Below, in pieces: positions 17,231-61,753 of a DNA stretch of 64,000 nucleotides. Each line of letters starts with the position of its first letter. Position 1 is the stretch's first letter. The notes under the pieces are model-generated. The model made no database searches and had not been told where the DNA came from. It saw only the letters and a program-made list of their open reading frames with translations. The DNA comes from Rhodanobacter panaciterrae. Lineage in GTDB: Bacteria > Pseudomonadota > Gammaproteobacteria > Xanthomonadales > Rhodanobacteraceae. The stretch lies in the NCBI RefSeq assembly GCF_014651895.1, contig NZ_BMXT01000002.1, positions 186,001 to 250,000 on the forward strand, written 5' to 3'. A program made the translations under genes and the position numbers.

Positions 17231-17258
17231 AACCGCGATCCCGGCATGGTCGTGCAAC

Positions 17259-17356
17259 TCTCCCTTCTGTCGCAGGGGAGGGCCGGCCAGGAGTCAACCG
17301 ACCTCGCGGCAAGCCCGCCCACCCCCTCCCGACCTCCCCCTGCATGCAGGGGGAGG
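17259..17356. repeat. Intergenic palindromes (units 1 and 2 of the CCTCCCC family)
   Basis: Unit 1 at about 17259-17283 is degenerate (CTCCC-TT-CTG with CAGGGGAG). Unit 2 at 17333-17356 is a perfect 24-bp palindrome centred on TGCATGCA with CCTCCCCC/GGGGGAGG arms and a CACCCCCTCCCGAC left flank. The same arms recur in five other gaps of the window. They fill most of the 171-nt gap between the oxidase and the glycosylase-like gene. Confidence 0.85.
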
Positions 17357-35627: not shown

Positions 35628-35734
35628 CCCTCCCCTGCACAGCAGGGGAGGGCCGGGGTGGGGTCGGCTCTTGATCTTCCCCGCACGTTCGGACAACCCC
35701 CTCCTAACCTCCCCCTGCTGCCCGCAGGGGGAGG
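35628..35734. repeat. Inverted pair of intergenic palindromes (units 3 and 4)
   Basis: Unit 3: CCCTCCCCTGC 35628-35638 with GCAGGGGAGGG 35642-35652. Unit 4: CCTCCCCCTGC 35708-35718 with GCAGGGGGAGG 35724-35734. Their T/G-rich and C-rich flanks are reverse complements, so the two units form an inverted pair in the ilvE/kinase convergent gap. Confidence 0.88.
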
Positions 35735-42085: not shown

Positions 42086-42174
42086 GCCGTAGTCGCTCCC
42101 CACTCCGACCTTCCCCGCTTGCCGTGGGTAGTCGGAGTGGGGGCGACCGCATCGGCACTCGCGATGGCAGCCGC

Positions 42175-42186
42175 TACAATGCGCGC
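42175..42186 (+). promoter_or_regulatory. -10-like TACAAT with 6-nt spacer to trmB ATG
   Basis: TACAAT (42175-42180) plus exactly 6 nt leads to ATG 42187, with no ribosome site. This matches dusB and uup. Confidence 0.55.
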
Positions 42187-42903
42187 ATGCCCAAGACCGA
42201 CCATCCCGACCACGACGACTCCGTACCGGAATACATGCGCCGCATCCGCAGCTTCGTGCTGCGCGAAGGGCGCATGACGCCGGCGCAGCAGCGCGCGTTC
42301 GACACACTGTGGTCGCGCTACGGCATCGACTATCACGGCACCCCGCACGACTTCGCCACGAACTTCGGTCGCCATGCACCACTGGTGCTGGAGATCGGTT
42401 TCGGCAACGGCGAGGCGCTGGCCTGGGCCAGCGAGCACGACCTGGCGCGCGACTTCCTCGGCGTCGAAGTGCACGGTCCCGGCGTCGGCCGGCTGATGAA
42501 CGCGCTGGCCGCACGCGATGCCGGCAACGTGCGGCTGTACAAGCACGACGCCGTCGAAGTGCTGGAACATGAGATCGCGCCCGGCACCCTCGCCGAAGCA
42601 CGCATCTGGTTTCCCGACCCCTGGCACAAGAAGCGCCACAACAAGCGCCGACTGATCCAGCCCGAATTCGTCGAACTGCTCGCCTCGCGCATGGCGCCGA
42701 ACGGCCTGCTGCATCTGGCCACCGACTGGCAGGCCTACGCCGAACACATGCTCGAGGTGATGGAAACCTCACCGACCTGGCGCAACCAGCTCGGCCCCGG
42801 CCGGTACGCCGAGAAACCCGAGTGGCGCATCGAAACCCACTTCGAGCGGCGTGGGTTGAAGCTGGGGCATGGGGTGTGGGATTTGTTGTATCGGAGGGTT
42901 TGA
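42187..42903 (+). CDS. trmB: tRNA (guanine-N7-)-methyltransferase
   Basis: 238 residues. SAM-binding motif [36 protein letters not shown], then the TrmB signature [22 protein letters not shown] and a C-terminal [17 protein letters not shown]. It methylates G46 of tRNA. It is followed directly by palindrome units 5 and 6. Confidence 0.94.
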
Positions 42904-42929
42904 GGGGCAAGAGCTTCACCCCCTCCCAA

Positions 42930-43027
42930 CCTCCCCCTGCAAGCAGGGGGAGGGGCAAAAGCCACTACTCAGATGCCGCCGTGTCGTAACTCCCTCCCCT
43001 GCTTGCAGGGGAGGGTTGGGGAGGGGT
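42930..43027. repeat. Inverted pair of intergenic palindromes (units 5 and 6)
   Basis: Unit 5: CCTCCCCCTGC 42930-42940 with GCAGGGGGAGG 42943-42953, preceded by ACCCCCTCCCAA. Unit 6: CCCTCCCCTGC 42992-43002 with GCAGGGGAGGG 43005-43015, followed by TTGGGGAGGGGT. The flanks are reverse complements. The end of unit 6 reaches the stop codon of the DUF559 gene. Confidence 0.9.
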
Positions 43028-43374
43028 CAGGCTCTTGCCTCACCTTCCAACACCCGAAGAATCTCCGCCACCACATCCTCCGTGCGCAACAGCACGTCGT
43101 CGTTCCAGAAGCGCAGCACGCGATAACCTTCGCGCTCCATCGCCTCAGTGCGACGTTGGTCGTAGGTCCGCGCATCAAGGTGTTGCCCACCATCCAGCTC
43201 GACCACCAAACGCGCCGGCACGCACACGAAGTCCGCGATGTAGCCAGCCAGCGGATATTGCCGCCGGAATTTGTGGCCGGCCAGTTGTTGGCGACGCAGG
43301 AAGTACCACAGGCGGCGCTCGGCATCGGTGCTTTCGTTACGTAGGCGGCGGGCATTGATCCATATGCGCTGCAT
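43027..43374 (-). CDS. DUF559 (Vsr-like endonuclease fold) protein
   Basis: 115 residues. It opens ARRLRNESTDAERRLWYFLRRQQLAGHKFRRQ and continues with the PD-(D/E)XK-like pattern IADFVCVPARLVVELDGGQH and VLRFWNDDVL, which defines DUF559. It is predicted to be a small nuclease of unknown target. Its stop lies at the edge of palindrome unit 6, and unit 7 begins 48 nt before its start, so the gene sits inside a repeat cassette. Confidence 0.85.
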   Translation of the reverse strand: MQRIWINARRLRNESTDAERRLWYFLRRQQLAGHKFRRQYPLAGYIADFVCVPARLVVELDGGQHLDARTYDQRRTEAMEREGYRVLRFWNDDVLLRTEDVVAEILRVLEGEARA

Positions 43375-43421
43375 GGCGAGTCCTTCGCTTGGCTTGAGCG
43401 AAAAGCTTTACCCCCTCCCAA

Positions 43422-43525
43422 CCTCCCCCTGCAAGCAGGGGGAGGAGCAATACGCTGTGCTCTCTTCCCTGCACGCAAGAGTGGGCGCAACACGCGATGC
43501 TCCCTCCCCTGCTTGCAGGGGAGGG
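43422..43525. repeat. Palindromes upstream of the DUF559 gene (units 7, 7b and 8)
   Basis: Unit 7: 43422-43445 with perfect CCTCCCCCTGC/GCAGGGGGAGG arms and an ACCCCCTCCCAA flank. Unit 7b: a degenerate copy at about 43461-43483. Unit 8: CCCTCCCCTGC 43502-43512 with GCAGGGGAGGG 43515-43525 and a CTGGGGAGGGGT flank. The rest of the 43375-43680 gap shows no gene. Confidence 0.9.
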
Positions 43526-43680
43526 CTGGGGAGGGGTCGCTCTTGGCCTTAGGTTCACCAGCCCTCGCATCAGCCCGCTTATACTCACGCCACTCACCCA
43601 GGGACGAATCGACGCAGCGTGAAGCTTCCACTGCCCCGCCGTATCTACCGTAACCCGCCGCCCTTCCGGGACGTCAGCTA

Positions 43681-45522
43681 GTGGGACTTTCGCTCACCCC
43701 CGAAATGATCCTGGTACTCGGGCTGGTGGGCTTCACCATGCTGATGCTGGTGCTGGAGTGGATCCGCGCCGACATGGTCGCGCTGCTGGTGGTGGTGGTG
43801 ATCGGCCTGACCGGGCTGATTCCGTCCGAGCGCGTGTTCAACGGTTTCGCCGGCAACGCGGTGATCGCGATCATCGCGATCATGATCATGGGCGAGGGCC
43901 TCGATCGCGCCGGCGTGCTCAACCTCACCGCACGCTTCGTGATGCGCATGGCGCGCGGTATGGAGTCGCGCCTCGGCGTGGTGATCAATCTGGTCGCCAG
44001 CCTGTTCAGCGCGGTGATCCCCAGCCAGGCACTGGCCGCACTGATGATCCCGGTCAGCAGCCGCCTGTCCGCGCGCACTGGCGTGCCGCTGTCGCGGCTG
44101 CTGCTGCCGATGGCGTTCTGCATCCTCACCGCGACCAACACCACCCTGATCGCGAACTCGCCGCTGATCGTGCTGAACGACCTGATCGCCAGCGCCAACG
44201 TGAACTTGCCGCCCGGCGCGCACACGATCCCGAAGTTCGGCCTGTTCAGCGTCACCCCGATCGGCCTGACCCTGGCCCTGCTTGGCGTGGCGTACTTCTA
44301 CTTCTTCGGTCGCAAGCTGCTGCCCGGCCATGAGGACGAGCGGCTGAAGGTGACGCCCGGCCGTACCGAGAGTTACTTCGCCGAGACCTATGGCATCGGC
44401 GGTGAGACCGCCGAGCTCACCGTCACCGCGGAGAGCCCGCTGGTCGGCATGAGCATCGGCGAAGTGGAACAACTGCACGGTGCGCCGCTGATCCTTGCGA
44501 TCAAGAGCGGCAACGACGCGCGCATGGCGCCGCCGGCCGACCACGTGATCTGGGTCGGCTCGGTGCTCGGCGTGCTCGGCCCGCGTGACCAGCTGGCCCA
44601 GTTCGCCAACAACCATCTATGCCGGCTGTCGACCCGCATGCGCCAGCTCGGCGAGCTGTTCAACCCGACTCGCGCCGGCATTTCCGAAGTGGTGATTCCG
44701 CCAGTCTCGCGCTTCATCAAGCACACCGTCGGCGAGTTGCGCCTGCGCAAGCGTTTCGGCATCTCGGTGCTGGCGGTGACCCGCGGCGAACAGGTATTCC
44801 GCGACGACGTGCGCGGCGTCAGCCTGCGCGCCGGCGACACCGTGGTACTGCATAGCAACTGGCGCGACCTGGCGCTGGCAGCGGAAGACAAGGATCTGGT
44901 CGTCGTTACCGACATCCCGAAGGAAGAGCAACGCCCCGGCAAGATCTGGCAGGCGGTGGGCTTCTTCGTGCTGGCGAAGTGCCTGGCGCTGTTCACCAAC
45001 CTCGACCTGTCGGTGGCGATGATGACCGGCGCGATCGGCATGCTGCTGTCCGGCGTGCTGAACATGGACGAGGCGTACAAGGCGATCAACTGGAAGACGA
45101 TCTTCGTGACCGCGTGTCTGATTCCGCTGGGCTGGTCGATGGACGCCACCGGCACCGCCGCCTGGATCGCGCAGGTCGTGTTGCAGCATCTGGGTGGCGC
45201 CTCGCCGTGGGTGCTGCAGGCGTGCCTGGCCATCCTCACCCTGCTGTTCTCGCAGGTAATGTCGAACGTCGGCGCCACCGTGATGATGGTGCCGATCGCG
45301 ATCAGCGTCGCCGTCGCCACGGGTGGCAACCCGTCAGCCTATGCGCTGATCGTGGCGGTCTCCTCGTCCAACACCTTCCTGCTCAGCTCCGGCCATCCGG
45401 CGCTGATGATGGTCACCGGCCCCGGCGGCTACAAGGGCAAGGATTTCCTGCGCGTCGGTGCACCACTGACCTTGCTGGTACTCGTGGTCACCCTGATCGC
45501 GATCAACCTGATGTTCCACTGA
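43681..45522 (+). CDS. SLC13-type permease with two TrkA-C (RCK_C) domains
   Basis: 613 residues from GTG 43681 (start uncertain, no clear ribosome site). An N-terminal membrane half (GFAGNAVIAIIAIMIMGEGLDRAGVLN; a FCILTATNTTLIANSP hairpin typical of the citrate/anion transporter superfamily) is followed by about 200 cytoplasmic residues with two RCK_C-like domains (AELTVTAESPLVGMSIGEVEQLHGAPLILAI; HTVGELRLRKRFGISVLAVTRGE) and a second membrane half. The substrate is unknown; sulfate or dicarboxylates are the usual options. Confidence 0.87.
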   Translation: MGLSLTPEMILVLGLVGFTMLMLVLEWIRADMVALLVVVVIGLTGLIPSERVFNGFAGNAVIAIIAIMIMGEGLDRAGVLNLTARFVMRMARGMESRLGVVINLVASLFSAVIPSQALAALMIPVSSRLSARTGVPLSRLLLPMAFCILTATNTTLIANSPLIVLNDLIASANVNLPPGAHTIPKFGLFSVTPIGLTLALLGVAYFYFFGRKLLPGHEDERLKVTPGRTESYFAETYGIGGETAELTVTAESPLVGMSIGEVEQLHGAPLILAIKSGNDARMAPPADHVIWVGSVLGVLGPRDQLAQFANNHLCRLSTRMRQLGELFNPTRAGISEVVIPPVSRFIKHTVGELRLRKRFGISVLAVTRGEQVFRDDVRGVSLRAGDTVVLHSNWRDLALAAEDKDLVVVTDIPKEEQRPGKIWQAVGFFVLAKCLALFTNLDLSVAMMTGAIGMLLSGVLNMDEAYKAINWKTIFVTACLIPLGWSMDATGTAAWIAQVVLQHLGGASPWVLQACLAILTLLFSQVMSNVGATVMMVPIAISVAVATGGNPSAYALIVAVSSSNTFLLSSGHPALMMVTGPGGYKGKDFLRVGAPLTLLVLVVTLIAINLMFH

Positions 45523-45556: not shown

Positions 45557-45581
45557 CCTCCCCCTGCTTCGCAGGGGGAGG
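45557..45581. repeat. Intergenic palindrome (unit 9)
   Basis: CCTCCCCCTGC 45557-45567 with GCAGGGGGAGG 45571-45581, followed by a CCAGGAGGGGGT flank, 35 nt after the permease stop. Confidence 0.88.
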
Positions 45582-45840
45582 CCAGGAGGGGGTAAGGCTT
45601 TTGATCTTGGCTTGAAAAAAGCACCCATCCGGGCCGCTGTGGCGGGAGTACAGATCACCGCCACAGCTCTGTTCCTTCCCGGACACTGGGCCGCGCCCAT
45701 GCTCAAAAACATCACCTTCACGTCATCAACGCGTGCAGGCAGGCACCTTGGGCCACACTGGTGCGATTGATGTTCATCTACACAACTAAAGACTGAATAC
45801 GAAATACCCGTGTCGGAGTCAGCCAGCTACATATGTTAAA

Positions 45841-61679: not shown

Positions 61680-61753
61680 CTCCTCCCCTGTTCTGGAGGG
61701 GAGGAGCAAGAGCTCTACCCCTCCTCAGTCCTCCCCTGCAAAAGCAGGGGAGG
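61680..61753. repeat. Intergenic palindromes (units 10 and 11)
   Basis: Unit 10: CTCCTCCCC 61680-61688 with GGGGAGGAG 61698-61706 and a 9-nt loop. Unit 11: CCTCCCCTGC 61730-61739 with GCAGGGGAGG 61744-61753. They sit in the 232-nt gap between wzc and the dehydrogenase gene. Another small hairpin GAGCC-AAAC-GGCTC lies at 61595-61608. Confidence 0.85.

Follow-up and report, generated by a model that had tools for sequence, protein, structure and literature searches.

The DUF559 gene and the palindromic units that enclose it are probably two parts of a single selfish system, a counterpart of RAYT/REPIN built on an unrelated enzyme, in which the encoded nuclease would recognise, cut and copy its own hairpins. 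DUF559/YcjD is a widespread protein family whose function is unknown, and pairing it with triplex-type repeats provides a candidate role, open to testing, for both partners. Besides RAYT, there would then be a second type of enzyme that may run a population of REP-like repeats. No link between DUF559 and such repeats was found in the literature searched, which represents part of what has been published (subscription journals and preprints lay outside it), so that an earlier description is possible.

In the window (the whole 64,000-nt stretch of Rhodanobacter panaciterrae DNA that was analysed), the DUF559 gene (348 nt, 115 amino acids; 43027..43374, minus strand) lies between trmB, encoding a tRNA methyltransferase (42124..42903, plus strand; PF02390; conserved in 30 relatives), and an SLC13/CitMHS-type transporter gene (43681..45522, plus strand) that has an ortholog in 45/45 genomes of the genus. 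The original prediction placed the gene between repeat units 5-6 and 7-8, and the hairpins indeed lie on both sides of it, the predicted interval of 42930-43525 running exactly from the first hairpin to the last. The outer units are unit 5 (42918..42957, minus strand; hairpin 42930-42953) and unit 8 (43498..43537, plus strand; hairpin 43502-43525). Of the inner units, unit 6 (42989..43026, plus strand) consists of a hairpin at 42992-43015 followed, toward the gene, by a third strand, GGGGAGGGG, whose end at 43026 adjoins the stop codon (43027-43029), as had been noticed earlier; unit 7 (43410..43449, minus strand) presents its third strand, CCCCCTCCC, toward the gene start, followed by a hairpin at 43422-43445.

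Each unit comprises a pyrimidine arm, a short loop, a complementary purine arm, two to three bases, and lastly a mirror copy of the purine arm, as in CCCTCCCC TGCTTGCA GGGGAGGG TT GGGGAGGGG, where the last element is the third strand. Folded as single-stranded DNA, unit 6 reaches -11.9 kcal/mol (z -3.05). A detector for this pattern (pyrimidine arm, loop, purine arm, mirror third strand) returned 9 units in the window, versus 0 in each of five dinucleotide shuffles. Judged by sequence, the combination of a hairpin with a mirror copy of its purine arm places these units with the 'potential intrastrand triplex' repeats (PIT/boxC/TM), whose E. coli motif is reported to form a triplex as a single strand in vitro (PMC4666352). 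The third strand is an addition to the earlier description, as is the finding that units 6 and 7 face each other across the gene. Together these two form an inward-facing inverted pair with 53-nt arms (42990-43042 and 43395-43447, 79% complementary), delimiting a putative mobile unit at 42990..43447.

The repeat is not confined to this locus: its core, CCTGCWWGCAGG, is present 48 times in the genome of 3.46 Mb (0 for the reversed control), and the dispersed copies of this genome are mostly inverted pairs with their third strands inward. Because the inner units share this geometry, the gene stands where dispersed pairs have their short tail-to-tail spacer. Within the window the same family is represented by a gene-free pair at 35628..35732 (plus then minus strand, tails inward), a unit at 17322..17356 (minus strand) with a degenerate partner at about 17258-17290, and two further units returned by the detector, at 45557..45592 (plus strand) and 61717..61753 (minus strand). 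A DNA search recovered the gene-free pair repeatedly across the genus, in the form of a single block some 112 nt long. Palindromes that are dispersed, often as inverted pairs, and tied to a cognate nuclease gene make the family REP/REPIN-like. The second short DUF559 gene of this genome is likewise enclosed, by hairpins of a different sequence. A weak DUF559 match within an 1884-aa open frame (L003; G000 C1:1156182-1156448) has no such hairpin nearby. At one dispersed-pair site (L299), several relatives (L309-L319, L323) carry an unrelated repeat, TCATTCCGGC...GCCGGAATGA, and this TCATTCCGGC-type family obscures the exact boundaries of the Rhodanobacter insertion there.

The association between DUF559 and hairpins extends to hundreds of bacteria: in Pseudomonadota it is almost universal, and other phyla show it too. 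In the bacterial family of the window, 86/88 DUF559 loci carry units, 73 of them on both sides, and across 40 family loci, mostly of 12 kb, PIT units number 11.1/kb up to 100 nt from the DUF559 domain versus about 0.13/kb at 500-6000 nt. Units on both sides and facing inward were found for 36/48 distinct family DUF559 genes (at least one unit, 47/48) and for 25/57 genes from the class and phylum (at least one unit, 45/57), with the inward orientation independent of the gene's strand. The family genomes are a tool-drawn sample, the controls were chosen mechanically from open reading frames, and hairpin types were defined by regular expressions. If DUF559 genes lacked the repeats as often as other genes do, the link first proposed would fall; a unit on at least one side instead accompanied 39/39 DUF559 genes of the family versus 27/179 others. 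The comparison came out the same way in 80 named loci from Pseudomonadota, Nitrospirota, Desulfobacterota-type MAGs, Chloroflexi and Gastranaerophilales: where enough flank was available, a unit lay within 250 nt in 61/72 loci and on both sides in 45/72, versus 5/124 and 1/124, respectively, for control genes of these loci. A motif-free score, taken from the highest-scoring inverted repeat that the left flank forms with the right, had a median of 24 for 173 DUF559 genes versus 9 for 364 controls (p=3e-55). Chance and a repeat-rich neighbourhood are ruled out as the cause by the control genes and this flank score.

Thirteen loci of the family, class and phylum and 13 named loci seemed negative; read by eye, most of them held the same palindrome in a form altered by mismatches, by a longer loop or by an additional small hairpin ahead of the third strand; a clear pair was not found in a few of the DUF559 loci read in this way, such as L112 and L277. 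Several loci depart from the usual arrangement. In two from Gastranaerophilales (L237, L280) the hairpins beside the gene point outward, in Legionella anisa (L222) the loops of the flanking hairpins are some 50 nt long and the gene sits inside a very long inverted repeat (flank score 122), and in L118 (G383) some ten units of another hairpin, CCCCTCTTTAGCAAAGAGGGG plus third strand, are arrayed downstream of the gene at a spacing of about 95 nt.

Hairpin type is cognate to the DUF559 protein. Among 88 family loci, the left and right hairpins of one gene score 0.65 in similarity and those of different paralogs within a genome 0.37 (p=2.7e-11), and protein similarity correlates with hairpin similarity (Mantel rho 0.42, and 0.40 for cross-genus pairs; permutation maximum 0.16). 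In one alphaproteobacterium from which eight DUF559 paralogs were fetched, most had a left/right-matched palindrome of their own. Repeat copy number tracks whether a genome has the gene and of which type: at least 10 repeats of the two commonest types, T and L, were found in 52/91 genomes with a stand-alone DUF559 gene versus 3/56 without (OR 23.6, p=2e-11, not corrected for phylogeny), T repeats tracking T-type genes and L repeats L-type genes. Within the genus, at least 10 matches were obtained in 10/10 genomes with an occupied site versus 4/20 others among the matches listed (p about 3e-5, worked by hand). Type Q, that of the second DUF559 gene of the window genome, was found at only 22 sites in 147 genomes; as 11 of these lie beside DUF559 genes, it looks like a recent arrival caught before dispersal.

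The window protein matches PF04480 over residues 6-110 (E 3.3e-41; 140 bits, against a curated cut-off of 20.6), in agreement with the nuclease assignment made at the outset, and alignments of the family show invariant residues E19, E59-x-D61, H65 and D72, with D48 nearly invariant. A structure model (pLDDT 88.7) predicts a Vsr/homing-endonuclease-like PD-(D/E)XK fold carrying these conserved acidic residues, its matches in the PDB including a DUF559 structure (3hrl, Z 16.9), the EDxHD homing endonuclease I-Bth0305I as second-best (Z 12.2 over 94 residues), and Vsr (Z 10.5). I-Bth0305I is itself a selfish nuclease, and the matched chain is a catalytic domain of a larger protein; unlike it, the DUF559 nuclease stands alone between hairpins, with no intron context seen. 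Fold and size are also shared with Vsr and with VsrA, a Caulobacter DUF559 protein that sets off a DNA-damage response in the absence of a cytosine methyltransferase and for which a role in mismatch repair, as a nuclease acting on T:G at methylated sites, has been proposed (PMC12907096). In contrast to the system described here, that study draws no link between VsrA and hairpins and leaves palindromes unmentioned (PMC12907096), and no cytosine methyltransferase was found next to the window DUF559 gene.

Insertion or duplication can involve gene and hairpins together, as one unit bounded by the bases of the hairpins. The clearest case is an alphaproteobacterium (G560) holding two 588-nt copies of gene plus hairpins, 5.7 kb apart and 86% identical, in which similarity starts and stops at the outer hairpin bases. 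Copy 1 has an 8-nt direct repeat, GCGGCACC, close to both ends on their outer sides, a single case. Similarity to relatives resumes at the element's edge, the element is missing from this site in all 29 loci of relatives (L350 has a partial match elsewhere), and one relative (L351, G722) provides a clean empty counterpart; this element is thus a discrete unit with defined ends and an empty site in relatives, in one case and outside the genus of the window. In another genome (L329:942-2427, G029) a DUF559 element with its hairpins stands three times in tandem, as 501-nt units that are 94-95% identical. Occupied and empty sites were also expected between trmB and the SLC13-type gene, and both exist: among 30 Rhodanobacter species, 10 carry gene and hairpins, 19 carry neither, and one carries the hairpin pair alone. 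Comparison of two Rhodanobacter sites gave no clear sign of a target duplication. In one species (L200:891-1235, G116) the gene at the trmB-SLC13 site is inverted between its repeats relative to the others. Two readings had been offered for the arrangement, and they fared differently: a mobile or repeat-maintaining unit is favoured, since each DUF559 gene has its own matching hairpin type, and repeats serving as passive recombination points for the gene's insertion are disfavoured.

Among the closest known systems is that of RAYT (TnpA-REP) and REP/REPIN sequences, where a single-copy nuclease gene is likewise flanked by palindromes dispersed as inverted pairs, protein and repeat are cognate, and E. 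coli genomes that hold the gene hold more repeats (PMC8049555). In contrast to RAYT, a Y1 HUH transposase, the protein here is of the Vsr/EDxHD PD-(D/E)XK type, and unlike REP/REPIN the repeat is a hairpin with a mirror third strand. A search of the whole window genome gave no match to the Y1 HUH domain (PF01797), ruling out RAYT as the mobiliser; the DUF559 system would therefore work like RAYT/REPIN without being a member. The repeats themselves resemble boxC/PIT/TM (PMC4666352; BoxC also PMC2267715), which share the order of pyrimidine arm, loop, purine arm, short loop and mirror third strand, often occur as inverted pairs, and are present at E. coli ycjD; whereas PMC4666352 gives no associated gene class or mobile element, we propose a cognate gene. 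As with MITEs and their autonomous parent, gene-bearing and gene-free versions share terminal inverted units, although here the terminal units are themselves hairpins and the protein has no known transposase domain.

We infer a mechanism in which the nuclease would recognise its cognate hairpin on extrusion (in single-stranded DNA at forks, or as a cruciform or triplex) and nick or cut at the hairpin base, after which processing of the break by repair or replication would copy the unit elsewhere. The gene-bearing version would then be the autonomous element, and the gene-free pairs of about 112 nt MITE-like copies moved in trans. That a lone nuclease of the Vsr/EDxHD type, with triplex-forming hairpins as its ends, spreads itself and gene-free pairs, is the source of boxC/PIT/TM repeats and makes up a mobile element of a new class we regard as about as likely as not.

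Several observations count against the selfish-system reading, in which cleavage and transposition are deduced from DNA sequence. To our knowledge, strand transfer is not an activity of any lone Vsr-fold nuclease. Three family genomes that have no stand-alone DUF559 gene hold at least 10 copies (gene loss is possible), the direct repeat in G560 is a single case, and VsrA is proposed as a mismatch-repair enzyme (PMC12907096). The orthologs in 10/30 Rhodanobacter species share one position at 77-90% identity, which indicates long residence, not frequent jumping; RAYTs, too, have been described as long-resident (PMC8049555).

Long residence also bears on the main rival explanation, in which a domesticated nuclease acts on hairpins or triplexes for the host, dealing with replication-blocking structures or guarding the genome, and repeats spread by other means create the need that keeps the gene linked to them. 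We consider this unlikely, if worth weighing: the 10 Rhodanobacter orthologs are under purifying selection (median dN/dS 0.17), the gene has persisted at one locus in these 10 species, the predicted fold is near those of junction- and mismatch-acting nucleases, and in E. coli instability of TM/boxC sites is reported (PMC4666352). Host maintenance nevertheless leaves unexplained why each DUF559 gene has its own hairpin type, why Q-type repeats lie largely beside a DUF559 gene, and why a duplicated element has hairpins at its exact ends.

A good deal less probable is a passenger role, with DUF559 as an ordinary nuclease of Vsr-like mismatch repair and the repeats spread by some other system, recombination between them having picked up the gene and moved it about. 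The predicted Vsr-like fold and the interpretation of Caulobacter VsrA as an enzyme of VSP repair (PMC12907096) would suit such a passenger, and the inversion in L200 and the tandem triplication in L329 indicate that recombination does occur at these loci; however, control genes of the same loci are not flanked, proteins and hairpins covary and paralogs have hairpins of their own, the association extends across phyla, and the window genome has no Y1 transposase. That the hairpins are only transcription terminators or mRNA stabilisers of a small gene is highly improbable, for although they are stable and one abuts the stop codon, units lie on both sides and inward whatever the gene's strand, carry a third strand, exist in tens to hundreds of dispersed copies and vary in gene-free copy number with the presence of DUF559, and PIT elements acted neither as terminators nor as promoters in earlier work cited in PMC4666352.

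The selfish-system reading can be put to the test in E. coli K-12, which has one ycjD and 23 repeats, about two fifths of complete E. coli genomes having no full locus. In this strain a boxC lies about 170 nt past the stop codon of ycjD, a DUF559 gene, and a second, decayed hairpin overlaps the gene's 3' end. Given 23 boxC/TM motifs in the 4.64-Mb chromosome (PMC4666352), the chance of one lying within 200 nt of ycjD is estimated at about 0.4%. The full ycjD locus was present in 3363/5375 E. coli genomes matching the query, and two ycjD-less genomes that were checked had an efflux operon in its place, the operon called eef in PMC12817139.
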